A program made the position numbers and the translations under genes. The notes under the pieces are model-generated. The model did not search any database. It saw only the letters and a program-made list of their open reading frames with translations, and was not told the origin of the DNA. A DNA stretch of 64,000 nt from Symbiodinium sp. CCMP2592 (Eukaryota > Sar > Dinophyceae > Suessiales > Symbiodiniaceae): contig CAJNDT010005869.1 in the NCBI GenBank assembly GCA_905221615.1, positions 795,733-859,732 on the forward strand, written 5' to 3'. Shown piece by piece: positions 33,283 to 61,539 of the stretch. Position 1 is the first letter of the stretch, and each line of letters starts with the position of its first letter.

Positions 33283-33317
33283 TATAGGGGGCTAAATAAT
33301 TATCAATACTATCTGGG
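33283..33317. mobile_element. Left half of a family A MITE split by LINE-A
   Basis: ATAGGGGGCTAAATAATT followed by AATACTATCTGGG matches the left third of family A. The remainder of the same MITE resumes at 41386 beyond LINE-A. Confidence 0.75.
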
Positions 33318-33549
33318 AGGGCTCAGATCGCCGGCCAGCAAGGCAATAGGAACACTGACGCCACAGTGCAATACGCACGTCTCAGCCTAGGGCCCAACTG
33401 CAGCCATTGGACTGCACCCGCCTTCGCCCAACTGTCATCACCGCGAGAGACGGCGAAGAAGCAAAGCTCGTCGTCGAATCAGCGTTTCAGTTCGCAAGGG
33501 CGTTGCGCCCTCAGCCAAGGATCTCTCATTACTTCTTTGTCATCATTCA

Positions 33550-34735
33550 ATGAGTGGAAAGACATGGAAGAACAAAGGCTACGACGATCGGGCCTATTAT
33601 GGCTCCGACGAACGATCCTATTGGCGTGGTGCATGGTATGCAGCACCCAAGGGTGGCAAAGACAAGGCCAGATTTCCGGCTTACGACCAGAAGCCCCATG
33701 GCAAGGGCAAGGCAAAAGCCGCGGAAGAGGCATTGGAGGAGCCCACTTTTGCCAATCTCCTCCAGGCGAATATCAATGCCACGCGCAAGGCCGAACAGAA
33801 GGTCGTGTCCATACAGAATGCCCTTCAAGAACGCAGGCAACAGTGGAGCGACTACGAGGCGGACATGAAGAGGACTTACATCCGCGAACTGAACAGCTGT
33901 AACAAGGAGTTGGAGCGCCTGGAAGGAGAGCTTCAGAAAGCATTCGCCTCTCAGGAAGGGGCACGGGTGGATCTTTTGCGAGCGGCCAATGGTACGAAAC
34001 CACCGGATTCCACCATGCCACAGGCGCAGTTGTAGGAGGACAAGGTCAGCAGCTGGAAGGCCGATCCTTCGGATCTGGACTCCAAAGCAGTTTTGTAAAG
34101 GGCCCTGCAAGCGAATTCCACCATGCCACAGCCGCGCACGACTGGGCCTACGTCTCAGACCATGATGACCGGGCCAGCAGCAGAAGGACCCAGTTTTTTC
34201 ATGGGCCCGCTACCATCACGGACCCCGTCATGACAGAGTCTCCTGGTTGGCCGCCGACGACAGCACCAGTACAGTTGGACGCAACTCATCATTCCCAGTG
34301 GGATTTGGCCCGCCGCCGCTAGGATTGACTACAGAGGTTCCGTCAGAGCCAGCTCCAGGCCTACCCTACATGGTTCCCAAGACCTCGGACCCCATCACCA
34401 AGGTGGAAGCGACAGTGGCGGCAGGCGCAGTGGCCTCCCCTCAGATGTCGCCAGGCACCAAGATGAGGAATGCATTGCAGCGAAAGTCTGTCAAGACCAA
34501 ACCTCCTCTGCAAGCCGAGCCAGTCTCAGGCCCCTCGTTGGAGCAGAAGTGGAAGCATCAAGAGCCAAGGCCTTTGCGGAAGCTTTTGCAGCCACCCCAT
34601 TCCGCCCGACGTCGCCAGCCACACCGAAGATCAGACAGAAACCAGAGCTCCACAAACTGTTTCTTTGGTCAACGACGATTCCTCCGAGGACGGCGCGAAC
34701 ACTCCCTCACATCTCGCCGGCATGGAGTAGCACAT
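33550..34735 (+). pseudogene. LINE-A ORF1, coiled-coil nucleic-acid-binding-type protein, broken
   Basis: The frame starts MSGKTWKNKGYDDRAYY, then SYWRGAWYAAPKGGKDKARF, and goes on to a long coiled coil (TRKAEQKVVSIQNALQERRQ and ELNSCNKELERLEGELQKAF). A TAG at 34033-34035 interrupts it, and the same frame continues for about 20 codons to a TAA near 34098. Further pieces in shifted frames (MAADDSTSTVGRNSSFPVGF; KAFAEAFAATPFRP; APQTVSLVNDDSSEDGA) match the expected disordered C-terminus of this ORF1 type. In LINEs, ORF1 proteins bind element RNA and form ribonucleoprotein particles. At least two frameshifts separate the pieces. Confidence 0.7.
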
Positions 34736-35637
34736 GCTGAATCTGCCTTTCCTTGGCCTCTTCCTCCCTGTCAGCCGTGTCCCATGTCGGGTGCACTGTC
34801 CCGCGTGCGACAGTTGCTATTGGGACTGCAACTGTGTGGCCTATCGACCCGCCGTGGAAGACAGGCCTGATATGGAGCAGGAGGCTGGGACATGGAAGAA
34901 TGAGCGTTTGCGATGTGACCTTGCCTGGCCCTCTGGCTGTCACGGTTCTTCACTCAGGCTTAGGTTTTCATACTGCATTTGTACAGTACCCTCTCCTTGG
35001 GCCTCACTTCACTTCCTCGCTGGAGGCCGGCACTGACACGCATTGGTCTTGTGCCTCCCAGTCTTCCACGCGAGGCTTCACTGGGCATTGGGCTTGTGCT
35101 TCAGGAAGTCCTTCCCCCCCGTGCACAGGAGCACACCACGTGGCAGTGTCCTTTCAAGCAAGGTGGTGTCTTCCTCTCGCGCTGGGAGGTCGCAATGTGC
35201 CTTGTATGGCTGCAGGACCTCCACTGCTCAATCCAGCCCCTGTTTTTCAGCAGAGCCGCTGCAATGCGCCTCATTTGGCAGCACACAGCCTGCTCTCTCT
35301 TCACTCCCTCCTTTGTGTATAACAGAGAGGGATCAGAGCACTGGTCCAGGTGCCACATCGGTGGAGCCGGGGTGTCCACCTGGTCCTGTTGCCTTTACAT
35401 CACATAGTTGGAGTTGGGCAGAGTCTCTCTGCCAATGCCTTCTTGCACGTCTCATCTTGCTGTCAGGTTTGGCACCGCCCTTCTCTTTCTCTGCCTCCTC
35501 AGCTTGACCCGAGTTGCAGCCCGACCTCTTCATCTGAGCCGACATTTCGGAGGAAAAGTGCTGCATGCTTTCCTTTGCTGTGGATGTTACGCCCCAGTTA
35601 CAGGTCTGGGCATAGTGGAGAAGACCCACAGGGCGGC
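34736..35637 (+). other. LINE-A inter-ORF or 5' ORF2 region
   Basis: Pyrimidine- and Cys/Pro/Leu-codon-rich sequence between ORF1 remnants and the endonuclease. Long frames exist in several phases on both strands, but none carries a motif. It is probably an ORF2 N-terminal region or spacer too decayed to read. Confidence 0.4.
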
Positions 35638-36390
35638 TGAGGTCGTTTACAACATTGCTGTTGCCTCCTTTAACGTGCTCACTCTCTTTGACCCCTGCGT
35701 CCCACAAGGCCGTTCACGCAGGCTCGGCAACGTTGACCTGATGACAGCGGGGAAAAGGGCAGTTCTTGGCCACAGGCCTCTGGCTCATTGGCTTGCAAGA
35801 AACCAGACTTCCAGAGACTGCCACTTTACCTGACCGTGACTATGCTCCCTCTGGATCAACAAGCACTTCGCATTTGCTCAGGACAATGCTAACCGCCACA
35901 AGATCGAGTCGGGGCAAGTCACAGTTGTTTCCAATTCCAGCCGACATTTGCAAGCACACCTCGAGACTCCCCGTCTAGCTCTGGCAGTCCAGGTAGCACA
36001 TGGGCCACGCGCTGCTACCACTGGCGAACAGGAGGTGCGTCGGTTTTGGCATGAACGAGCCACCGATCTTTGTCGGCGTCCTGCTGGCATGGAATGTATA
36101 GTGCTCACTGACGCCAACGGCCATGTTGGGTCTCTCGAGACCTCCTCCATCGGAGGCTTCGGAGCTGAAACAGAAAACTTCGAAGGCTCTTGCTTTCACG
36201 ACTTCTGGCTTGCTGTGCGCTGTTTCCTGCCGGCCACCTTTGCACAGTTCCACAGTGGAACGCACTATACCTGGCGCTCACCTGGTCGTGAAGCAGTCTC
36301 GACTATGTTGCACTTCCCAACGAATGGCGGGAGTTCGAGGTCAGCACGCAGGTTGGAGTGGGTGGTGCTGCAGATAGCTGATGGAGGGTG
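35638..36390 (+). pseudogene. LINE-A ORF2, apurinic-like (EEP) endonuclease domain, broken
   Basis: Recognisable blocks in order: VVYNIAVASFNVLTLFDP (first strand with the Asn), LIGLQETRLPETATLPDRDY (catalytic QET box), ECIVLTDANGHVGSLETSSI (the DAN/DFN box), AQFHSGTHYTWRSPG (TW/YTW box) and LDYVALPNEWREFEVSTQVG (the xDYV box). They occupy at least three frames, so several frameshifts are present. The final SDH/EDH box is missing because the foreign block at 36.4 kb begins first. EEP domains nick target DNA to prime reverse transcription. Confidence 0.75.
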
Positions 36391-37434
36391 GGTGCAGAAA
36401 ACTCCCGCATCCTCAAAATCAGCTTTATAAGCAATAATGTTCTTGCCCTGAAGATCTCTTTCCCAGAGTATCTGCTGTATTGGAGAGGCTCCGAAACTTG
36501 TTGACTGATTGCGTATGGAACTGTTGGAATAGATTCCCATGGTAGCCCCTGCACACACCTACAGCTTCATATTCCTCCCCCAACCCTAAACCCCAAGCCC
36601 ATTGCCCTGACCAGTAGCTTGCATTTTGTTTTCCTTATTTGTACTTTTCCTGCGGCCAACCAGCAAGGAAAGCGTGGATGAATTGAAGATTTCCATGTCC
36701 ATGATGGGGAGCGGCTTGGTTCAGCGGGAAGGTTTCGTGTGCTGCGCTGATCAGTTTTCGATTTTAAACATTTACGCATATATGTGCACCTTTGCTTGTC
36801 TGTGCATCCTGACAGACTGTGTGTGGTCTCCATAGGTAGTTTAGCGAATTGGGTAAGATCCAGGTACTCCTGGTACAAGCTCAACCAGGTCGAGATTCTG
36901 CAGATTTCGGCCAGGTAATGAACTCTTCAACCAACCAACGTGCGGCATGATTGCATCACAAAGCCCACATTAGGGTTCTGGCTTTGGGGCTCAGGGATGA
37001 AGGTTTGGGGGTCTCTAGATTCTAGATGTCTCTCGTATGGTAATCTTCTGACCACGTCAATGCACCAGCCAAGCTACTGCGCCACATGCGCATGTTTGTT
37101 TTTATCTAACTTCATGCGAGTCTCCCAGGCGTATAACCCACCAGTCATTTCGGCTCAACAGCATTGTGACGCTTCGCATCCGCTATCCTCGTTTGGCACC
37201 AAGAGGTCGTGCACATTCGTGCAGAATTCGCCACGCGCTCGCGGATCTCCACCGCAGCGATTGTGGTGGTTGCACTACTATGATTGTGCGTTTGGCTTTA
37301 GTTAAGATACAGATGTTAGTAACCCCCTTATAACCCCCCTGTAACCCCCTTACATCTTTGCTATCCATGACGTAAGTCCCTGCTAACTTGGGGGAAGTTA
37401 TTAGAAGGTTGGTTGGAAGAAATAGAAGTTACTA

Positions 37435-37510
37435 ACCTCAAGTTAACTTTTAGGCTAACTTTTTCTAACTTATGTTAACTTATGTCAACTTATTCTAACT
37501 TTTTTGTGTT
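37435..37510. repeat. TAACTTATG-type short repeat
   Basis: Imperfect units of TAACTTATGT, CAACTTATTC and TAACTTTT. Confidence 0.7.
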
Positions 37511-37626
37511 ATGTCGGGTTTGTGTTAAATGGTTTTCGTTGTTAGTCACTGATGCTGTTCTTTTCTGTGCTCCACAAAGATAAGAGCATATACTACGGGC
37601 TTAGGGGGTTCCGGTGTTTAGGACCG

Positions 37627-37637
37627 CCAGCACCAGC

Positions 37638-37668
<31 letters not shown>

Positions 37669-37765
37669 CCACCACCACCACCACCACCACCACCACCACC
37701 ACCACCACCACCACCACCACCACCACCACCACCACCACCACCACCACCACCACCACCACCAGAGT
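37627..37765. repeat. (ACC)n trinucleotide repeat, ~140 bp
   Basis: About 40 nearly perfect ACC units. Poly-Pro and poly-Thr translations are artefacts. Related interrupted ACC/AGC tracts continue at 37806-37920 and 38005-38220. Confidence 0.95.
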
Positions 37766-37805
37766 TATAGGGTTTAGGGGGTGTAGGGGTACGGTGTGGA
37801 GTGTA

Positions 37806-38225
37806 GAAACACCATCACCGCCGCCGCCACCACCACCACAACAGCAGCAACAACAGCAACCACCACGAGCACCAGCACCACCAGCACCAGCACCACCACC
37901 AACAGCAACAACAACAGCACGTCTAGGATGTTAGGAACACCACTAGCGCATGTTTAGAGTTCAGGGGTTTGGGGGCTTAGGGTTTGGGGTGCAGTGTAGG
38001 GCTTGGGAAACCTCCGCCAGCGCCAGCACCAGCACCAGCACCCACCAGCACCAGCACCAGCGCACCAGCACCACCGCCGCCGCCGCCGCCCCCACCACGA
38101 CCACCACCAGCACTACCAGCACCACCACCACAGCAGCACCAGCAGCACCAGCAGCACCATCACCACCGACACCACCATCAGCAACCCCCACCGCCCGCGC
38201 TACCACCGCCAGCACCACCCCCGAG
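37806..38225. repeat. Interrupted ACC/AGC/CCG triplet tracts
   Basis: Two blocks (37806-37920 and 38010-38225) of mixed ACC, AGC, CCG and ACA triplets separated by GTTTAGGG-like sequence. Confidence 0.85.
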
Positions 38226-38234
38226 TTCACAAAA

Positions 38235-38492
38235 CCAGGCCGGATAAGTTCAGAAAAGTTCATATTTCCAGGCCTGAAAAGTTCATAAAAAGTTCATATT
38301 TCGTGGCCTGAAAAGTTCATAAAAAGTTCATATTTCGAGGCCCGAAAAGGCCTGAAGAAGTTCATATTTTTAGCGCATTATTGGTATTTACAATGAATCC
38401 AAGCCTGAAAAGTTCATATTTCGAGGCCTGAAAAGTTCATAAAAAGTTCATATTTCCAGGCCTGAAAAGTTTATAAAAAGTTCATACCACCA
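38235..38492. repeat. ~34-bp tandem repeat (AAAAGTTCATATTT type)
   Basis: Units of GGCCTGAAAAGTTCATAAAA plus AGTTCATATTTC. About six imperfect copies with one internal insertion near 38370-38400. Confidence 0.85.
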
Positions 38493-38514
38493 CCTCGAAA
38501 CCCACCACACCCTA

Positions 38515-38740
38515 CCGGTGGTGGGCCGGGGGTGGTGGATGGTGGTTGGTGTGGAGTGGGTGGTGGGTGGGTGGTGGTGGGTGGTGGGTGGTGGGTGGCG
38601 GTGCGTGGTGGCTGGTGCAGCGCCTAAAGTTTCAAACGATCCCCCAATCAGCTGCGCAAAGTTTTTCTAGGAATGGATTTGTTAACCTCATTTTGGTGTG
38701 GGTGGTGGGTGGTGGTTGGTGGGTGGTTGCTGGTGGGTCC
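38515..38740. repeat. GGTGGGTGG tract
   Basis: Two dense blocks (38515-38612 and 38694-38740) of GGTGGGTGG, GGTGGTTGG and GGGTGGTGG on the plus strand. Closely spaced G runs give potential for G-quadruplex structure. Confidence 0.85.
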
Positions 38741-38764
38741 CTGTACACAGCAGTATCGCCTTTC

Positions 38765-40805
38765 AACCGCTACCAGCGGTTCTTTTGAGTGATGGCACCA
38801 TGGCCCAAACTTTTGCGCAGAGGCAGCAAAGGTGGACAGAATATTTTAGTCAACAGGAAGCAGGTATTACTGTCTCTGCCCAGGAATACGTTGAGGCCTT
38901 CACGCAGCCGGAGGTGGAGGTCCTTCCCCACGGCCTTCATTCTGCATCCATGCCACCCCGACGCTCCATGAGCTTGTACAGCAACTCCTGCAGTCCGAGC
39001 TGCACAAGGCATGCGGTCCCGACGGGATCGCTTCCGAGATCTTTAGGATCTCTGTGCCGCATGTCTTTAAAATGCTTTTTCCGATCAGCCTCAAGGCCAG
39101 TCTAGGCACCAGGGAACCTTCTGAATGGCGTGGTGGCAGTTTGATGTGCCTTGCGAAACGAGCCAAGGCGGCCATGGAATGTAATTCTTTTCGATCCATC
39201 TTAATGGCCAGTGTGGCCGGGAAGGCGCATCCCCGCATCTTGCGTGCCAAACTGATGGATTCCTTCGTGTCCTATAAGACATCCCTTCAGTCCGGGCAGG
39301 CTAAAGGAACTGGTGTTGAGGGCATGGCACACCTCGCCCGTACGTTTCAGCTCTTATGCTGTGCTGTCACATTCTTCGACGTCAAAGCTGCGTTCTACCA
39401 GGTGTTGAGGCAGGCATTGCTTCCCACCAAGCATGGCCTTTCCGATGAAGGTTATCTTCGGTTGCTTCATGGGCTCGGCATTCCTGATTCGGCAGTGCCC
39501 GAATTAGTTCAGCACCTTCGCACCATGGCTGCGCTGTCGGAAGCGGGGACGGAGCAACACCTTGTCGCGCAGACGGCAGACCTTTTTCGGGGCAGTTGGT
39601 TTAGGCTTGACAATGCAGGGCCCCTGGTCTTGACCCGAAGGGGTACAAGACCAGGGGGCCTTTAGCAGATATCTTATTCGGGTGTACTTTCGCCGCCTAC
39701 CTTCGCAGCTCCGAACAGGCCTTACCCCGTGCCAGTTTTGGAGGGTCCGCAATTTTGGCGAGACTGGGATCCAGTCCACAGCATCGGCTGCTTAGCCTGG
39801 GCTGACGACTATGCCCACTTGCAAGCAGATCGGCTGCAGTCGGTCTTGCTTGATAAGGTTGCACGGGCTACATCCATCCTCGTCACCCATGCTTTCTTGA
39901 ATGGCATGCAGATCTCTTTCGCGGCTGACAAAACCACCGTGCTTTTCTGCACGGCCTGCTCTAGGACCCCCACATGACAAGTCGTCTCCAATGACGACGG
40001 GGAACCATGCCTAGTAGTCCACGATTCCATTACCGGCAGTACTCATCTTCTTCAGATCGTTGACTGCTATCGCCATTTCTGTACGATTGCGGTCGCGAAT
40101 GCCACACCAGGGCCGGAGATTGCCTTCCGAGCAGCACAGGCCTTCGCCGCGGTCAAGCCACTTCGGCGCAGACTCTTCTCCAGTTCGGATGTTCCCATGC
40201 CAGTGCGTCGGAACTTGCCTAGGGCCCAAACTTGTCTTCTCGAGCTGTGCTATACTCCTGCAGGCTGGGACCCATCGCAGGACGTGGTGCAAACACTACA
40301 TCGCACTTTGGCGCAGCCTCTGCCGATGGCATCAAGCTCACTGCTCCCCGTATGCCTTCCAAGTACTTCTTCAGGCTCTGCTACGTCGCCGCTGCTTGCA
40401 ATCGCACAGGCCAGGGCAGGGTATTTCCGCAGGCTCCTCGCGTGGGGGCCGCCAGAGCTTTTTCACCTCTTGCTCGCTCACTGGCAGCGTGCTCCGGCGC
40501 ACTTGTGGATCGGCCAGTTCGAAACAGACATCAAGGCTGTCTCTGTCTGCATTCCAGACGATGTCGTTGTCTTGCGTGTGGGCTCACCAGTCTCACGACT
40601 ACTTGAGGCAATGCAACATGACCCACAGTGGTGGCCCCGTCTTATCAAGCGAGCGATTCAGAAGTATGCGCATGATCTTCACCTGTGGGAACAGACCAGA
40701 GCATCACCCGCACCAGAACATCGCGTGACGAGCCTTTCCTCAGAGGCTCAGTCCTTTCAGTTCGAGGCCTGTGGGGCTGTATTCAGGCTCCGGAAACACC
40801 TATAG
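38765..40805 (+). pseudogene. LINE-A ORF2, reverse transcriptase domain, broken
   Basis: Resumes with RPLPAVLLSDGTMAQTFAQR and QQRWTEYFSQQEAG (pre-RT linker), then REPSEWRGGSLMCLAKRAK and CNSFRSILMASVAGKAHPRI (fingers). Motif A is AVTFFDVKAAFYQVLR (catalytic Asp near 39378); motif B is RGTRPGG with PLADILFGCTFAAYLRSS after a frameshift near 39655; motif C is CLAWADDYAHL (WADD at 39798-39809). The thumb follows (NGMQISFAADKTTVLF), then VVSNDDGEPCLVVHDS beyond an in-frame TGA at 39975-39977. WADD in place of YADD is common in this dinoflagellate LINE type as I recall it. Confidence 0.8.
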
Positions 40806-41287
40806 GAGTCCATCGAGCGAGTGCCCATGGCCATTTCAGTCCGGCACGGCACTTTGTCGTCATGCCCTACTGTCTTGTATGCCACAAATGGTTTCATACC
40901 ATTGAACGTGTTCAGTACCATCTTAAGAGCAACAGGCATTGCATGTCTCGCCTTCTTCATGTCATCCCTCCAATGACCAAATCTCAAGTTCAGATCGTCG
41001 AGACAGAAAATCGATGCCGACAGCGAAAAATACGCCAGGGAGCGTGGAATCATTACACCGCAGCTGCGCTTGCTCTCCAGGCATACTTCCACAGACTGCC
41101 TACATACACGGAAACTCGCCCTGACGAGACCGACTCCCTTGCTGCTCTCCGGCCTCGCTATCGACCCTCTCCTGACACCGTTCATTGGATTATGAACCGG
41201 TTGCAGGAATCTTTGTTGAAGGCCCTAGGAACGAGGTCCAGGAGTTTTGGCTCCAGAGCCCCCCCACTACCTTCCTCGCGACTGTGA
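40750..41287 (+). pseudogene. LINE-A ORF2 C-terminus with C2H2 zinc fingers
   Basis: A degenerate first finger (FEACGAVFRLRKHL, then HRASAHGHF after a frameshift near 40800) is followed by a clean one: CLVCHKWFHTIERVQYHLKS with NRH (C-x2-C-x12-H-x5-H). A basic region follows (NRCRQRKIRQGAWNHYTAAA) and a tail to a stop at 41287. C-terminal zinc fingers in LINE ORF2 proteins are thought to contact nucleic acid at integration. Confidence 0.7.
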
Positions 41288-54365: not shown

Positions 54366-54403
54366 AACAACAACAACAGCAAGAGCAACTCCAGCAACAG
54401 CAA
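54366..54403. repeat. CAA/CAG microsatellite, left flank and target duplicate of LINE-B
   Basis: (CAA)n and CAG units ending in CTCCAGCAACAGCAA (54389-54403), which is repeated exactly at 60827-60841 on the far side of LINE-B. Confidence 0.8.
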
Positions 54404-55437
54404 TTTTTTATTGGACGCTGAGCGAGCGGGCTCTGCTCATTGCGGGCGTGTGAGACTGCCTTTGCACCTGAGCAAAGGTCTGAGGGCAGAAATGCAAAGG
54501 GCCTGGGCCTGAGAGCACTGAGAACAGGCTAACGTAAGGAGAGAGCTACCCTACAAGCTACATCAGAGGCCAACTCATATTACTCAGGCGTGGGTGAGAA
54601 ACCCTCCGACACCCTCAGTGTCCTCGAACCAATGATTGATGAGCCGTACCCCGCGGGACCGTCACTCAGAGTGCCTGTTGCGTGGCGTCCCACTCATGGT
54701 CACTCTCAATCAGAGGCGATGGGCCGTAAGGTCGCAAAGGTGATGAGCACGTGGAACGGCTGCGGGATCCTGTCGTGCCGTCAATCCAAGAAACCCGAAG
54801 AAACCAGCCAAGCCCCCCGCCAAAAGCAACCCCGGCAAACCCAACCGAAACAGAAAATCCGAAGACGAGGCACCCTTGCAGCGGCTCCCACTCTTTTCTG
54901 ACTGGTGGATCGCACAGAGCTCCAATACTCTGAAACAATGAAGACATCAGCTCCGATGCTGATAAATCGCTTCAGCTGCTGCTGAAAACCACTGCCCCCC
55001 TGCAGACACAGGGTGGGAGGGTGGGAAAACAAGACTGCCGTCCGACAACACTGCAGGCACTCGAGCAAGACCACTCGAACTACACAGTGGCACACGGACA
55101 GCTGTAGCAATCACACATGTCACGCCACATGCAACAGCAAACAAGCCTTGCCTAGAAGGACACAAGGCACTCTCGGATCCCACTTCGTGCCCAGCAAGTG
55201 TTCACCCCGCTATAGTGCTGTTATCTGAGGTAGCTCCGCTTTTGTGGGCAAGCAGATTGCATCGGTGAACGATGTGGCACACCCTGGCGGTTAGCACACT
55301 GTGCCTAATAAGGCCGATTTCAGCCATTGGTCAGCTGTGTTGCTGACAGGCGTTGCCTTTCTGGAAAAGCAGCGAGCGTTGCCCGACTAGCATGACAGGT
55401 CTAGGCCGCTATTGCGCACAAACGCTGAGTAGAAGAG
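54404..55437 (-). other. LINE-B 3' untranslated region
   Basis: About 1.03 kb between the last stop (55438) and the A-rich tail. It contains CAGGTG-rich and GGCCTGGGCCTG sequence and no recognisable domain. Frames at 54590-54947 on either strand are not supported. Confidence 0.55.
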
Positions 55438-56463
55438 CTACGTCAGCCGTACAACTTGAGCAGCAAAACTGAGTGACAGCGTTCCTGCTCCCTGCCGTGC
55501 AGGCAGGTCGGTCCCACGGAGCCAGTGGGTCGCCCCCTCCCTGTAAAAGGAAGTAGGGGCCCCTGGCCGCAGGGGAACCCTCAGCTTAATCATCAGAAAC
55601 ATGGACTGGCATAGGGCCAGCCTCCGCTGGTCCTCGGAAGGCGACACTCGGAACAAGAGGGACGACTTGCACTTACACTTACACGGGGAGGACAACAGCG
55701 CAGGTGGCACTGTGCGAGGTAATGAGCCAAGTCGCACTAACAGCACACAACAGCCGTGGCGTGCTTGCCTGAGATCGGAATCGGAGGCCGGAACCGACGG
55801 ACGACCATCGTCCGTGCTGAACCAAGGTTGATCGGGGTTGCTCCTCCAAAGGGAGCGATAGTGTCCACTGTGCGGAGTGTCTCCTATATGAAAGACACAG
55901 GACTGGACCCATCCGTGCTCTAGTTGAACGAAGCCCGTCGGGGCCCACTGCGGGAGCTGAACAGGGCGATGTAGACCTGTTACGGCATAACTGAGCTTGC
56001 GACCTTCAACGAATCGTGCCACCGAGAGAACCACCAGCCGTTGCTTCCCTCGAAAAGCAGCGTACACTGGCTGACCGGACCACCGAGAGATCAGCTCCTG
56101 GAGTTCGTGAGAGCCAGCTGCAGTCGGAGCCGGCAGCAGGGCGAGCGGACCACCCTCATCCGTTACTTCAGTAGCGCGCCCATCCCTGACTTCCCAGGGT
56201 CTTGCGATTGGAAACCCAGTAATTCCAGCGAACAATGCTACCAGGAACTCCGAAGCATCTTGCTGTTGACCATCATAGCGCCAGGTGGGAGTGAGATGAC
56301 GAAGTGTGAAAGAGGCAGTCAGGGTAAAAGGGGAACCAGAGGCGGAGTCAGCCACTTCGTGGTGGAGGGAGGTGCTGGCTCTTCCGTGCTCAAGCAAGAT
56401 GCGCGTCGGCACCAATGCCGAAAGCGTAGAGTTGACATAGCACTAATTAGAGATATTGCGCAA
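55438..56463 (-). pseudogene. LINE-B C-terminal USP-like (peptidase C19) deubiquitinase domain
   Basis: USPs remove ubiquitin using a Cys-His-Asp/Asn site. Here the Cys box reads SLRNISN, stop, CYVNSTLSALV, against the family pattern GLxNxGNTCYMNSxLQAL. Only the Thr codon is replaced by TAG (56445-56443), and the catalytic Cys follows at 56442-56440. Next come YDGQQQDASEFLVALFAG (QQDA-EFL box), HELQELISRWSGQPVYAAF, RLVVLSVARFVEGRKLSYAV (the L-x-RF strand), and CVFHIGDTPHSGHYRSLW (GHY His box) with PWFSTDDGRPSV (the W-x-DD box). No CxxC zinc ribbon is seen. The frame is open from the TAG to a stop at 55438, with about 85 extra residues after the domain. Confidence 0.8.
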
Positions 56464-57290
56464 CGAGCGGGGAGCAGCGAGTGCTCCGTCCCTTGATCCT
56501 TCTGCCTCTGGATTCGGCGGCAAGGGGCCTGCAGGCGTTGCCTGGCGAGTCAGGGGCGTTGCTCCGACAGCGGTACTGCCGTCCTGTTTGGGAGCATGGC
56601 CCGGTGTCGCGCCAGCCATTGGCATGTACCTACGTAGCGGTCCACCCTGACAGCGGGAGAGATCATGAGCCAAGTCGTAGAACAGAATCTGAAACAGTAT
56701 CGGACACTGTGCCGGATGCTGCCTCCTGTCCGTAACCTGCTTGCGACAGCACGGACAGGGCATGCCCTTGACAAGGACCAGACCTGATTTGCTGCTCTGT
56801 GCTGTGGCAGCTGCCCCATGAGCCGCCCATTCGGGCTTGTGGGCCTGCCTGATGTGGGATTTGAGTTTGGTGTTGTCTGGAGTCCAGAACCCACACAGCA
56901 AGCAATAAGACATAAGGGTCCTGAGACTCATCCAACCTTCCTAGTTCAACAGCTGTGTGTGTAGTCAAGGTGTCATGCAAGCGCTGCTGCCTGGGATGCA
57001 ACCGGGGCATCAGCTGCGAGTCTGAGGGAGGGTGCGCCGCGTCATCCAGCTCCTTTAACCTAGCTGGCTCCGAACAGGCGCCAGATAGCAGGTGATCTTT
57101 TAAGCCCTTCATTTGAGGGAATTGCCTGTTGCAGGCTGCACACTTGGGGAGCCCTCCTACGGAGAGAGTGTGGGAAAAACCTCGAGGGACATATCTAAGA
57201 ACCGAGCCTGGATGCTTGCGGGCCTGGTGGGTGCGAAGACCAACCTCAGTGTCGAAGGCCTGAGCACACGTCGGACATGCGAAAGAGGGA
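56446..57290 (-). pseudogene. LINE-B zinc-finger region between RT and protease
   Basis: Fingers in order: CPTCAQAFDTEVGLRTHQAR with KH (C-x2-C-x12-H-x4-H, Cys codons at 57277-57266); CAACNRQFPQMKGLKDHLLS with GAC (C2HC); after a frameshift, CLLCGFWTPDNTKLKSHIRQ with AH (C2H2); and CPCCRKQVTDRRQHPAQC (C-x2-C with H and C). A Pro/Ala-rich linker (TRQATPAGPLPPNPEAEGSR) joins this directly, in the same frame, to the USP domain. Zinc fingers after RT are usual in this LINE class and likely bind nucleic acid. Confidence 0.75.
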
Positions 57291-58606
57291 GGGGCCTCCT
57301 GCTGGGCTGTGTCCTCGGAGAGTTGTTGCAGAACGTCTGCGTACCTGGCAGAGAGCGCCTCTGCTTAGGCGCTTGACACGATTGGCTTGTCTCGCCTGCA
57401 GCTTACAAACAGGATCCATGATCTCGTGGGAGGCATAGAGGTCAGTGGTCGATATGTGTGCAAGGTGCACTGGCTTGTTCAGTACAGCTCGGATTTTTCG
57501 AGCGTGCCAAGCCCGCAAGAGTTTGGCTGTCTCCAAAGTCAAGCCCACATCCACCAACCCAGAGGCCACGGTGGCCCAGACAGTACTATGCCAAATATGC
57601 AACCGCGATGCCGGCCCTGCCGTGCGTCTGTTGTGAACGAAGCGACGTACCTGCTGCAATTTGGCATTGCCCTCCTGCAACCGAAACTTGAGAGTAGCCT
57701 TCTCAAAGTTAGAGTAAGAGAGCACGACTCCGAGATACTTAAAGGTCGTCACCATCGGGAAGCCTTCGTGAGACTTGGACGCTCCCAGCCGCCACATCTT
57801 GTGGCGAGTACCGTCGGGCGCGGTGAGCCAATACGTGTGCTTGGATATGGCGCGTGGCGCCTGTTGGCCCTCGAGCTTTATCATGACGGTGCATTTAGCA
57901 CCATTGACAGCAAATCCATGACTGCGGACCAACTGCAACAGCTGCTCAATAAGAGCATGGGTCCTCCAATGAGTGGATTTCGCGGTGAACCGTCAGATCA
58001 TCCGCGTAGCCTGTGAGGTAATCCACCACAGCACGAGCACCGACAAGAGCTATGAGCTCCCGAAAGATGGTGCCCGTAAGCATGGAGAAAAGAGTAGGGG
58101 CAAGCTTACAACCCTGTTTAATGCCAGCTGTGGATTGGACTGTGTCCTCTTCACCCTGCGTGCGAAAGGTGTAAGCACTACCAGCATGTAATGAGGCGAC
58201 ATAGGTCCATTAGGTCCTGAGGGACTCCCGCATCCCGCAGGGTGTTGAGCAGGTCTGTCCTGCTCACCATGTCAAAGGCCTGTGACAAGTCCAGGGCAAA
58301 ACAGATACCACCTACCAGCTGGGGGCGAGTTCGCCCCGAGTGAAGCTGATGCCTGGTACGTCGGGCCTCCTGGCAGTTGCTGCGTACCTGAGTGACATGG
58401 CCAACGACCCTGCTCAAGGCATCGGAAAGACCACGTTGGGGTTGGTAGGCAAATTGTGGGAGACCCCGGAGATAGTCAGCCGTGTAGGGAGACAGCTGGT
58501 CTCTACAAGCCCCCGCCAAGCCTTTGCCATCCGGCCGAATGATGCCGAGTGGACGAAGGTTGCCAGGCTTCGTAGCCGGCTTGTTAGGCTTGGGAATAAA
58601 ACACAA
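57246..58606 (-). pseudogene. LINE-B reverse transcriptase domain, broken
   Basis: Blocks in order: LRPLGIIRPDGKGLAGACRD (fingers), LPQFAYQPQRGLSDALSRVV, motif A GICFALDLSQAFDMVSR (Asp at about 58290), LNTLRDAGVPQDLMDLCRLI, then after a frameshift near 58180 AYTFRTQGEEDTVQSTAGIK and motif B GIKQGCKLAPTLFSML, motif C GYADDLTVH (YADD codons 58008-57997), a one-base shift near 57960, then VRSHGFAVNGAKCTVMIKLE and FKYLGVVLSYSNFEKATLKF (thumb). All catalytic aspartates are retained. The single-base slips look like recent decay or assembly errors. Confidence 0.8.
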
Positions 58607-58607
58607 G

Positions 58608-60368
58608 TCAGCATTCTAAATTTAGAGGCGGCTGGAGAACCTCAGCAGCCGGCTTTGGGCGTTGCCCCCGAGATTGCAGCGTTGCTGCTAGCCCCGCTCC
58701 CGCATCTACCGAGCGCAGCCGCCAGGCAGCCGCCGGAGCCGAACCCTGCGGGACCGCCTTGTGCGGTCTAATGGAGCCGATGTGCTTGGCCAGCAAACCA
58801 GCCGGGATTTCCGGTAGCGATCCCACTTGGTGTTCGAGGGGAGGATGTCTGGCAAAGACCTGTTCCACGTGTTCGCGAAGCAAACGAAGCTCAGAGTGAG
58901 AATCCAAAAGCAGGCCATCCGGTCCCTGAAGCTGGGCCTTGATTTGCGGCTCCCATGGTCGGAGCTTCTTTAGGGTCTTATGCGCGATGTACGAATCGTG
59001 TCTGGCACACGCCTCGTCCACCTCTGCCTGAAAAGCTCGGTAACGTTCCTTCTTGGCTAGGTAGAGAGCCTGCTTATGCCAGCGACTCAGGTCCTCCAAA
59101 GACTGATCCAGGTCGGATAAAGTGGTGATGGAGTCCTCATGCAAGGAGCGGATGTGAGCGACTCTGTTCCACATGCGCAACGTCGCACGATGCTGAGCAG
59201 TTTCCGGAGCTTGTTGTGGCCGAGGCTTGGGAAAGAACAAAGCAGAGGCCTCCAGCAGCACCTGATTGACTTCATCAGGCGTGTGATTCCGAGAGGACAG
59301 ACGCTGGCCCACCCAGTCCTGCATGCGGCCGGCTATCGGCAGACCTGAACGGACAGCCGTCTCTAGAGCTTCCTTATGGAAGGTCAGGGGGGGGCAAGTG
59401 GGCTTAGGCAAATTCCAGTGCTGAGTGGGTCGGAGATGAGTCAAGACGGGAAGGTGGCCGCCTCGCTTCCACCTGCCGAGCTGAAGATCCTTGCATGGCC
59501 CAGACTGTTTTGCCGGACCCTTGGCCGAAGCCTCGGAGGTTAGCAGAAAGTCAATTTGCGAGCCCCGTCCATTCAAGAAGAAGGTGTGACCAGCGCCACA
59601 GGACCAAGTGTTAAGAGCTACCAACCGATGGGAGGAAACCAAAGCCTGGAACGGCTCATCCTGCATTTGAGCATGCTCCTTCCTTGTGCTACGCTGGCCC
59701 ACCAGACCCTCCTGCGGAGTCAAACGAGCGTCAAAATCGCCTGCCAAGAGAAAGGTATCCCTCGCCGGGATTGCCCGGATCGCTGCTGACAGATCGCGGA
59801 GCAAGTGTGAGCGGAGCGGTCTTCCTTGTTCTGCTGAGGAGACTTCTTAGAAGACCACGCATGTTGATAGACCGCAAAGACACATGCACGCGGGCCCCAA
59901 GCCACGGGAAAATGACCTGAATGAGCCTGCCGCGGCGTTGCTCTCGCCACCTAATCCGTTTCTTGTCTATCTGAGGAGAAAGGAGAACCATGACACCGTC
60001 CGCTCGACTTGTGTCATGAACAGCTGGCTGCGTGGCAGCGCCTTGCTTGGAGCGTTGCCCGGGAGCAGTTTTAGCTTTGGGTGCCCGGGCAGCCCCTTTT
60101 GTGGCGGAGCTCACGCAGTGCCAACCCTCACATCAAACTCTGCTGTTTCACTCCAGTGAGTTTCCTGCAAGACCAGAATGTCGCAGACATACTTGGCCTC
60201 CGTGCGAAGCCACGTCTTCACTTCTGTCCATTGTTGCATGCCAAGGTGCCCAGCGTTCCAGGAGAGAACACGAAGAGACTTGCTGGCACGACCGCCTCTC
60301 GGGCGCGAACGGAAACTGGCGCAGGGACCTGAAGGACCTGAAGGAGAAATCGTGGAGCCAGACAGCAC
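58608..60368 (-). pseudogene. LINE-B EEP (AP-like) endonuclease domain, broken
   Basis: The N-terminal part reads SLRVLSWNAGHLGMQQWTEV and DILVLQETHWSE (SxNxxG and QET boxes). Then, in two other frames, GVMVLLSPQIDKKRIRWREQ and CVFAVYQHAWSSKKSPQQNK follow. The last frame (59804-58608) gives TFLLAGDFDARLTPQEGLVG (GDFNA-like), FFLNGRGSQIDFLLTSEAS (xxIDFxL) and RGGHLPVLTHLRP, in the place of the usual SDHxPV box. After the endonuclease comes a charged helical linker toward RT. At least three frame changes show decay. The domain would nick DNA to prime reverse transcription. Confidence 0.75.
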
Positions 60369-60826
60369 GGGAGGGGAGGAGGGGAGGGCGGGGTGAGTCC
60401 ACTGCGGCGCAAATGTTCGGGCGTCAACGTACCATTCCGGTACGGGATGCTGTCTTGTGTTCTATGTACCTTATTGCAAGCCCTGCGAAAGGCTTTCTTG
60501 CGAATGCTCTCAAAAGAATGCTGGTGCATTGGCGATTGCGCCGTCCGCTAGTTTCGCCGGAAAGAGAGAACTCAATCCGACTCCCTTCACCCTGCGGAAA
60601 GGTGAAAACCACTACCGCTTACCTCATGCCAAGGTTGTATAACTGCAGACAGAGGCCCGGGAATTGGGACCCGGCAGATCACAGCGGCACGCGGCTCCGG
60701 GAATAGCTATGGCTCAGAAAAAGGACAGTCCCTTAAGCTTCGCAGAAGGGGGACGTTGCGAGCCTCTAGCGTTGGTACCCAGAGCCTTGTTAGCAAAGCT
60801 ACACAGCCTGCTGTGATCCGTAGCGG
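60369..60826 (-). other. LINE-B 5' leader
   Basis: About 460 bp upstream of the first endonuclease block, GC-rich, with no ORF1 visible. It contains a GAGGTAAGC donor-like and a TTTCCGCAG acceptor-like sequence, which may be coincidental. LINE-B thus appears to lack a separate ORF1 unless one is too decayed to read. Confidence 0.5.
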
Positions 60827-60886
60827 CTCCAGCAACAGCAACTGCAACAACAGCAACAACAGCAACAGCAGCAACAGCAGCAACAG

Positions 60887-60921
<35 letters not shown>

Positions 60922-60935
60922 ATAGTTTTAACAAT
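60827..60935. repeat. CAACAG/CAACAGCAG microsatellite, right flank and target duplicate of LINE-B
   Basis: Begins with CTCCAGCAACAGCAA (60827-60841), the duplicate of 54389-54403, and continues as (CAACAG)n and (CAGCAA)n. Poly-Leu and Asn/Ser open frames across it are artefacts. Confidence 0.85.
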
Positions 60936-61539
60936 AACAATGCATATGGTTATAGGATTGAAATGTTGAAGGGAACCAGTCGCGACAACCAACATGACTA
61001 TAGTTGAGTTTTGACTACCGGCAGGGTGTCAACAATAGTTTCATTTCAACCATAAGAGCAACAGCTAGAGCTCTCGGAATGTCGACAACCTAGCAGACCT
61101 AGCAGCTGGTTCAGCCATCGCAGGTCAGCCGTGAACTAGCACCAATCTTTCTTGCAACGCAGTGCATTGCATTCGTTGGCTCCATGTACTTTCTCGTCGC
61201 TGGTCTGATGTGACTGGCCTGATTTAATGCTTGCATGGCTCAAGGCTCATGTCAGGTTTATCGTGTCGGCAGGTTCTGAGGCGTGGAAATGATTTGGATG
61301 GAGTTGATAGTCAGGTCATCACAGCCCAAGCCTGAGTTGTTGCCTTCCTGATCCAGGGAGGTAGGGAAGTAGGTTTGTCGGCCTACCGTGATTAGGTGGT
61401 TACATAGCTGGTTTTCTGACGGGTACACAGGTCGGCTCTAGGAAGATAGATAGCTAGAGTTTGTAACTGCCATGTATGTGTATGTGTACACATTTGACCA
61501 AATAAAACCTGTAGATTGTACATAAATAATAATATATGG
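60936..61539. other. No gene recognised
   Basis: Unique sequence without open frames of note and without telomere-like tracts. Confidence 0.4.

Follow-up and report, generated by a model that had tools for sequence, protein, structure and literature searches.

Long interspersed nuclear elements (LINEs) that have taken up an additional enzyme are known from several lineages, including Symbiodinium itself. The SymbioLINE-Dnmt elements of Symbiodinium encode, in an open reading frame (ORF) upstream of the reverse transcriptase (RT) ORF, a DNA methyltransferase under purifying selection (PMC5890265); the NeSL and Utopia non-LTR (non-long-terminal-repeat) elements of nematodes, which use a restriction-like endonuclease, have an N-terminal Ulp1-like cysteine protease (PMC4640811); insect TRAS/Jockey LINEs carry a viral-type SF1 helicase domain of viral origin, C-terminal in one case (PMC5563155); and, among DNA transposons, Ginger1 elements have a C-terminal OTU or Ulp1 domain, while a Trichomonas protein joins transposase_11 to Peptidase C19 (PMC2836005). 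In this work we analysed 64,000 nucleotides of Symbiodinium sp. CCMP2592 (contig CAJNDT010005869.1, positions 795,733 to 859,732; hereafter the window), whose minus strand contains a degenerate LINE copy with an APE-type (apurinic/apyrimidinic) endonuclease of the endonuclease/exonuclease/phosphatase (EEP) family and, at its end, a domain of the ubiquitin-specific protease (USP, C19) type. We show that this domain is predicted to fold as a USP and conserves the catalytic residues, that related LINEs carry it in frame with RT in uninterrupted ORFs, and that it has diverged together with RT.

Like SymbioLINE-Dnmt, these are Symbiodinium LINEs with a captured, conserved host-type enzyme, but the methyltransferase lies in an upstream ORF whereas the USP is fused C-terminally to RT and zinc fingers; in the window copy, the only one considered for this point, about 300 bp separate the putative 5′ end from the ORF start. 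NeSL and Utopia also combine a non-LTR protein, zinc fingers and a ubiquitin/SUMO-type cysteine protease, but there an N-terminal Ulp1 accompanies a restriction-like endonuclease, and here a C-terminal C19 domain accompanies EEP; Pfam reported no Ulp1/C48 family at E-values up to 0.01 in 17 relatives. The Ginger1 and Trichomonas proteins are likewise mobile-element proteins that carry a domain of deubiquitinase type, which is C19 in one case, but they belong to DNA transposons with unrelated transposition enzymes, and the domain added in TRAS/Jockey LINEs is an SF1 helicase, not a USP. Dualen/RandI elements, LINEs with both APE and restriction-like endonucleases, share the APE endonuclease. 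They carry an OTU-like cysteine protease, which is another family than C19; Pfam scans reported no OTU family for the window domain, which is UCH/C19. Cellular USPs (USP12/USP46, USP30, USP21, USP2) have the same predicted fold, Cys, His and Asp boxes and QQD motif, but the LINE domain has a shortened fingers region, is fused into a retrotransposon polyprotein and is only about 16–23% identical to them in structural alignments. A LINE with a captured ubiquitin-pathway protease is therefore not without precedent, and it is the C19 class that we did not find described for LINEs: among openly licensed PMC papers none describing a LINE with its own USP was found, the string 'ubiquit' in the text of PMC5890265 matches only 'ubiquitous', and PMC9412976 concerns a host ubiquitin hydrolase tree and not a LINE. 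The association of RT with USP is already present in a public record, the S. microadriaticum protein P0021 (P numbers denote the proteins compared here, 50 in all), which has both Pfam domains in its precomputed list and looks like a chimeric gene model.

The window copy encodes a USP-type domain

The initial annotation had recognized CYVNS, QQDASEFL, an L-x-RF strand, HSGHY and DDG, and all are indeed found, as CYVNS, QQDASEFL, VLSVARF, HSGHYR and TDDG, in the minus-strand frame 56463-55438. The oxyanion Asn lies at 56457-56455, the catalytic Cys at 56442-56440, QQD at 56265-56257, the His at 55863-55861 and the Asp pair at 55812-55807. The compact USP core proposed for this frame is confirmed, but the proposal left out an in-frame TAG (56445-56443) directly before the Cys, and the last ~95 codons lie past the end of the relatives' ORFs, the core ending near 55732. 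This TAG is the single interruption, the open frame proper (56442-55441 plus stop) beginning at the Cys, so that about 1.2 kb hold the motifs without a frameshift and with a single stop. Leaving out the N-terminal box, the Pfam UCH score is 26.0 bits (cut-off 23.9); it rises to 35.2 bits (E 1.3e-8) when the box is included and the stop read through. A USP profile built from relatives, without the window, matched one of 1705 six-frame window pieces of at least 25 amino acids (192 bits, E 7e-58), and nothing among the reversed pieces matched it. The USP likeness of this frame is not due to chance.

Structure prediction, which with a UCH profile search had been set beforehand as the test of the annotation, returned a C19/USP fold, and profile matching agrees; a search of solved structures with the single sequence gave nothing useful, while the profile search matched. 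In an alignment of nine hand-picked domains (A4), N16, C21, H214 and D231/D232 are invariant and line up with the boxes of USP46, and the oxyanion Asn, Cys, QxD, GHYR and DD are likewise invariant. In USPs the Asn, Cys, His and Asp residues supply the oxyanion hole and the catalytic centre. The fingers region is short, with about 46 profile positions between the two matched blocks against about 103 residues in USP46; a full-length fingers subdomain is absent, and no Cys other than that of the catalytic centre is invariant in A4. Since the fingers subdomain is a variable feature among USPs, we do not take its shortening to exclude membership. By fold, the USP model also matches two giant-virus proteins in BFVD (A0A1V0SHG5 and A0A3G4ZXG1_2) that are named as endonuclease/exonuclease/phosphatase family members, possibly another EEP–USP pairing.

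Related LINEs carry the USP in frame with RT

Protein searches scored the best ~8000 candidates, and P0048, although 67% identical to P0031 in RT, is absent from the RT-search list. A search with zinc fingers plus USP found at least eight proteins, all with RT, and UCH is in the precomputed Pfam list for five among the matches listed. In our own Pfam scans, which are independent of the local profile, 10 of 17 whole relatives (P0001–P0005, P0031, P0035, P0036, P0047, P0048) passed the cut-offs for both UCH and RVT_1. P0002 and P0005 are uninterrupted 1610-aa ORFs in which Exo_endo_phos, RVT_1 and UCH all score above cut-off; their zinc fingers give Pfam matches below cut-off, with C2H2 patterns present. 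The annotated expectation that related LINEs hold the domain in frame with RT is thus borne out, and the profile, fold and fused ORFs together support its proposal that a retrotransposon lineage captured a deubiquitinase.

The RT search found at least 42 proteins; among the matches listed, the local profile gives a full USP in 16 (above 25 bits, with the match beginning no later than profile position 30 and reaching at least position 230) and a partial one in four. The Cys-box pattern occurs in 14 and GHYR in 15 of these 16, but the 12 seeds of the local profile, the window included, were picked by motif, so that seed matches and, in part, the Cys-box invariance arise by construction. A USP search returned 17 proteins at E up to 1, the new ones being P0043–P0048 and, weakly, P0049 (E 0.06) and P0050 (E 0.28). 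In P0031, P0034, P0035 and P0036 the USP is found in LINE ORFs just 28–33% identical to P0005 in RT. Nine of the 50 proteins have an organism label, which is Symbiodinium in every case, and the tag Skav of P0040 presumably stands for S. (Fugacium) kawagutii. The USP donor was not traced to one particular host USP; P0050 is USP-like with PF13423 and PF09409.

Some RT proteins of Symbiodinium have unusual records. P0028 and P0029, LINE RT proteins, are labelled 'RXLR78', a misleading effector-like name, and for the RT-containing models P0039 and P0041 the precomputed list gives ankyrin-type Pfam domains or PF01885 (kptA in the record); these are either chimeric models or further captures.

A probable shared history of USP and RT

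The RT tree has 24 rows, and the USP and RT trees were compared for 16 elements; P0003 and P0004 were excluded as near-copies, P0021 as a chimeric model and P0049 for having no RT, and partial copies were also left aside. Patristic distances correlate with r 0.88, a value reached in none of 2000 permutations, and 8 of 13 splits are common, near-identical rows raising this agreement. In all nine pairs compared, the USP is more identical than the adjoining linker (by 3 points only in P0005/P0036 and P0031/P0048); these are protein identities, not Ka/Ks values. The viral-contig scans with P0025, P0005 and P0048 returned no DNA copies of the relatives. On the RT tree, presence of the USP shows no clustering (7 changes, a number as low in 370 of 500 shuffles); an ancestral USP often lost or cut off afterwards would give this pattern, which does not prove such a history. 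The simplest reading of the trees is an ancient capture followed by joint inheritance with RT, although a single capture is not proven.

Layout of the window copy

tblastn with P0025 and P0001 places the N-terminus, EEP, RT, zinc fingers and USP in this order along the minus strand, between 60529 and 55735, with at least six frame changes. The USP thus lies downstream of the other domains on the same strand, as annotated, with RT and EEP in other frames. All features below are on the minus strand.

60827..60841, putative 5′ target-site duplication TTGCTGTTGCTGGAG, bordering a TTGCTG-type microsatellite and identical over its 15 bp to 54403-54389
60530..60826, 5′ untranslated region, provided the 5′ end is placed correctly; between the duplication and the first P0025-matched residue (60529)
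58620..60529, N-terminus, EEP (APE-type) endonuclease and spacer, spread over two or more frames (tblastn of P0025)
57366..58615, reverse transcriptase including the GYADD motif, in three frames (tblastn of P0025)
57080..57283, C2H2 zinc fingers 1 and 2 (Pfam; frame offset 1)
56839..56904, C2H2 zinc finger 3 (YCLLCGFWTPDNTKLKSHIRQAH), in the USP frame, +1 to fingers 1 and 2; C and H invariant in alignment A1
56704..56757, CPxC...H...C knuckle (CPCCRKQVTDRRQHPAQC), in the USP frame; P0001 C749, C752, H762 and C766 invariant in A1
55732..56478, USP/C19 domain (Pfam UCH, USP profile, predicted fold)
56443..56445, in-frame TAG directly before the catalytic Cys (minus-strand translation)
54404..54409, 3′ A6 tail, within AATAAAAAA (flank comparison)
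54389..54403, putative 3′ target-site duplication, paired with 60827-60841

The copy matches P0025 over both the EEP endonuclease and the LINE-type RT. Residues 1–45 of P0025 correspond to 60529-60395 (80% identity) and residues 51–629 to 60371-58620 (57%), and the RT to 58615-58199 (76%), 58200-57961 (85%) and 57965-57366 (79%). Pfam scores are low here: Exo_endo_phos reaches 15.9 bits (E 0.011, cut-off 24.5) in ORF 59846-58608, RVT_1 12.3 bits, below cut-off, in the sole window RT piece scanned, and zf-C2H2_4 27.3 bits (cut-off 27) on finger 1, with fingers 2 and 3 matched only below cut-off. From 56904 on, zinc finger 3, the knuckle and the USP are in one frame without frameshift. The 15-bp direct repeat, with A6 preceding its 3′ copy, brackets 60826-54404, but its position is the edge of a microsatellite, and words of at least 15 bp are common to both members in 16 of 1804 random flank pairs, so that the repeat is suggestive and these element ends are only probable. 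The TTGCTG-type microsatellite flanks the element on both sides (60841-60960; about 54389-54360) and may be a preferred kind of target for the family.

The plus strand holds a second LINE-like stretch of another kind at 33300-41287. It contains ORFs that look RT-like by eye, and a C2H2/jaz zinc finger at 40676-41287. None of 10 tblastn query proteins matched it at E 1e-4, and it was rejected as a second USP carrier, the USP profile matching only one piece of the whole window.

A subfamily with the USP out of frame

Among the matches listed, P0025 is the closest to the window copy by RT (79% identity) and is its sister in the tree (99/97 support); it represents a cluster of 264 sequences grouped at 90%, a figure that is not a copy number. 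Its 1219-aa ORF stops inside zinc finger 3, and the rest is one base out of frame. The end, LSHMWFLDP before the stop, can give CxxCGFWTP when read one base on (1 position), which none of 127,420 control tests does, and in the window copy fingers 2 and 3 are likewise separated by a +1 step. On these sequences the USP of this subfamily, out of frame with RT, may be either lost or separately expressed. One reading is that the frameshift in zinc finger 3 severed the USP, that the element spread without it and that the window USP is a relic. The P0025 ending and the shared +1 relation favour this, while the window copy still holds its catalytic motifs with a single stop and no frameshift, and split expression fits equally; we put a relic at somewhat less than an even chance. 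It is compatible with the explanation preferred below for the other families. In a more elaborate scenario, which we consider doubtful, a self-encoded USP would be a core domain of deep-branching Symbiodinium LINEs against ubiquitin-based restriction, and in one prolific subfamily RT and zinc finger 3/USP would have been uncoupled into +1 overlapping frames, with frameshifting or re-initiation yielding the deubiquitinase in a fixed proportion to RT.

Possible functions of the LINE-encoded USP

We favour the explanation, at a probability of about 0.57, that the window holds a dead copy of an EEP–RT LINE whose family captured a fingers-reduced USP, inherited it with RT and uses it against ubiquitin-dependent restriction. 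The capture would have been a single event, or a few events, preceding the divergence of the sampled LINEs, and the USP would then have been passed down with RT. Functioning copies would make a single polyprotein, EEP–RT–zinc fingers–USP, in which the USP could strip ubiquitin from the element's own protein (in cis) or from host proteins at the element's ribonucleoprotein (RNP), and thereby blunt restriction of retrotransposition. Such an anti-restriction role is reasonable because mouse L1 ORF1p is restricted through ubiquitin: it is reported to be polyubiquitylated and degraded with TEX19.1/UBR2, which restricts mobilization (PMC5570191). Protection of the RNP from ubiquitin is plausible.

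Several results weigh against this explanation. The window copy itself is dead, and the ORF of P0025 stops before the USP. Among the 17 whole relatives scanned, UCH is below cut-off in P0007, P0026 and P0034 and is not listed for P0006, P0023, P0025 and P0032. No USP above 25 bits is present in 22 of the 42 RT-found proteins among the matches listed. Comparing each of these 22 with its two best matches, similarity stops before the USP position in 21, and P0008 reaches the first part of the USP; many are simply short, while P0017, P0024, P0029, P0032, P0033, P0037, P0039 and P0041 continue with other sequence. P0013, P0017, P0029, P0033 and P0037 have three finger patterns without a USP, and the gene models P0017 and P0024 contain two USP scraps each (8–13 bits). 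In P0049 the DD pair is replaced by ED. The deep placement of P0034–P0036, P0040 and P0047 differs between the two trees, with weak support. In the nine pairs, USP identity is lower than that of RT in all nine, and compared with the EEP–RT spacer it is higher in four, equal in one and lower in four. In these sequences the USP evolves faster than RT and is overall no better kept than the spacer; the case for constraint therefore rests on the motifs and not on overall identity. Finally, ubiquitin cleavage by the domain, its substrate and its benefit to the element are inferences.

An active USP might instead act on host chromatin, removing ubiquitin from H2A/H2B or repair factors at the integration site and so aiding target-primed reverse transcription. 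This fits the position of the USP next to the C-terminal zinc fingers in one polypeptide with EEP and RT, and the Ginger authors proposed that transposon OTU/Ulp1 domains work through ubiquitin-regulated repair (PMC2836005); we regard this target, rather than the RNP, as unlikely. The shorter fingers region and the spacer-like overall identity could also mean that the retained fold serves to bind ubiquitin or forms a structural C-terminus and does not catalyse, but all nine aligned domains, some from elements about 30% identical in RT, have the oxyanion Asn and the Cys, His and Asp unchanged, and we find a non-catalytic role quite unlikely. The initial annotation had also suggested processing of the polyprotein at a ubiquitin-like site, and viral polyprotein proteases (coronavirus/torovirus 1a) are among the weak BFVD matches. 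Of 10 ORFs scanned, just two contain RGG, RLGG or RGGG, in places unrelated to each other, and Pfam reported no ubiquitin-like domain at E up to 0.01 in 17 proteins; with neither a conserved site nor a ubiquitin domain, this very improbable suggestion was rejected. As to a host USP gene or retrocopy lying accidentally beside a LINE, adjacency in a broken copy such as that of the window is insufficient to exclude it, but many ORFs have the fusion and the USP co-diverges with RT; because uninterrupted ORFs hold the USP in frame with RT, an accidental neighbour is refuted, and its probability is negligible.

Retrotransposition plays a large part in dinoflagellate genomes (PMC11453091). A conserved deubiquitinase encoded by retrotransposons would, if true, point genetically to a restriction of LINEs by ubiquitin in dinoflagellates as well, and the USP domain makes such restriction testable.
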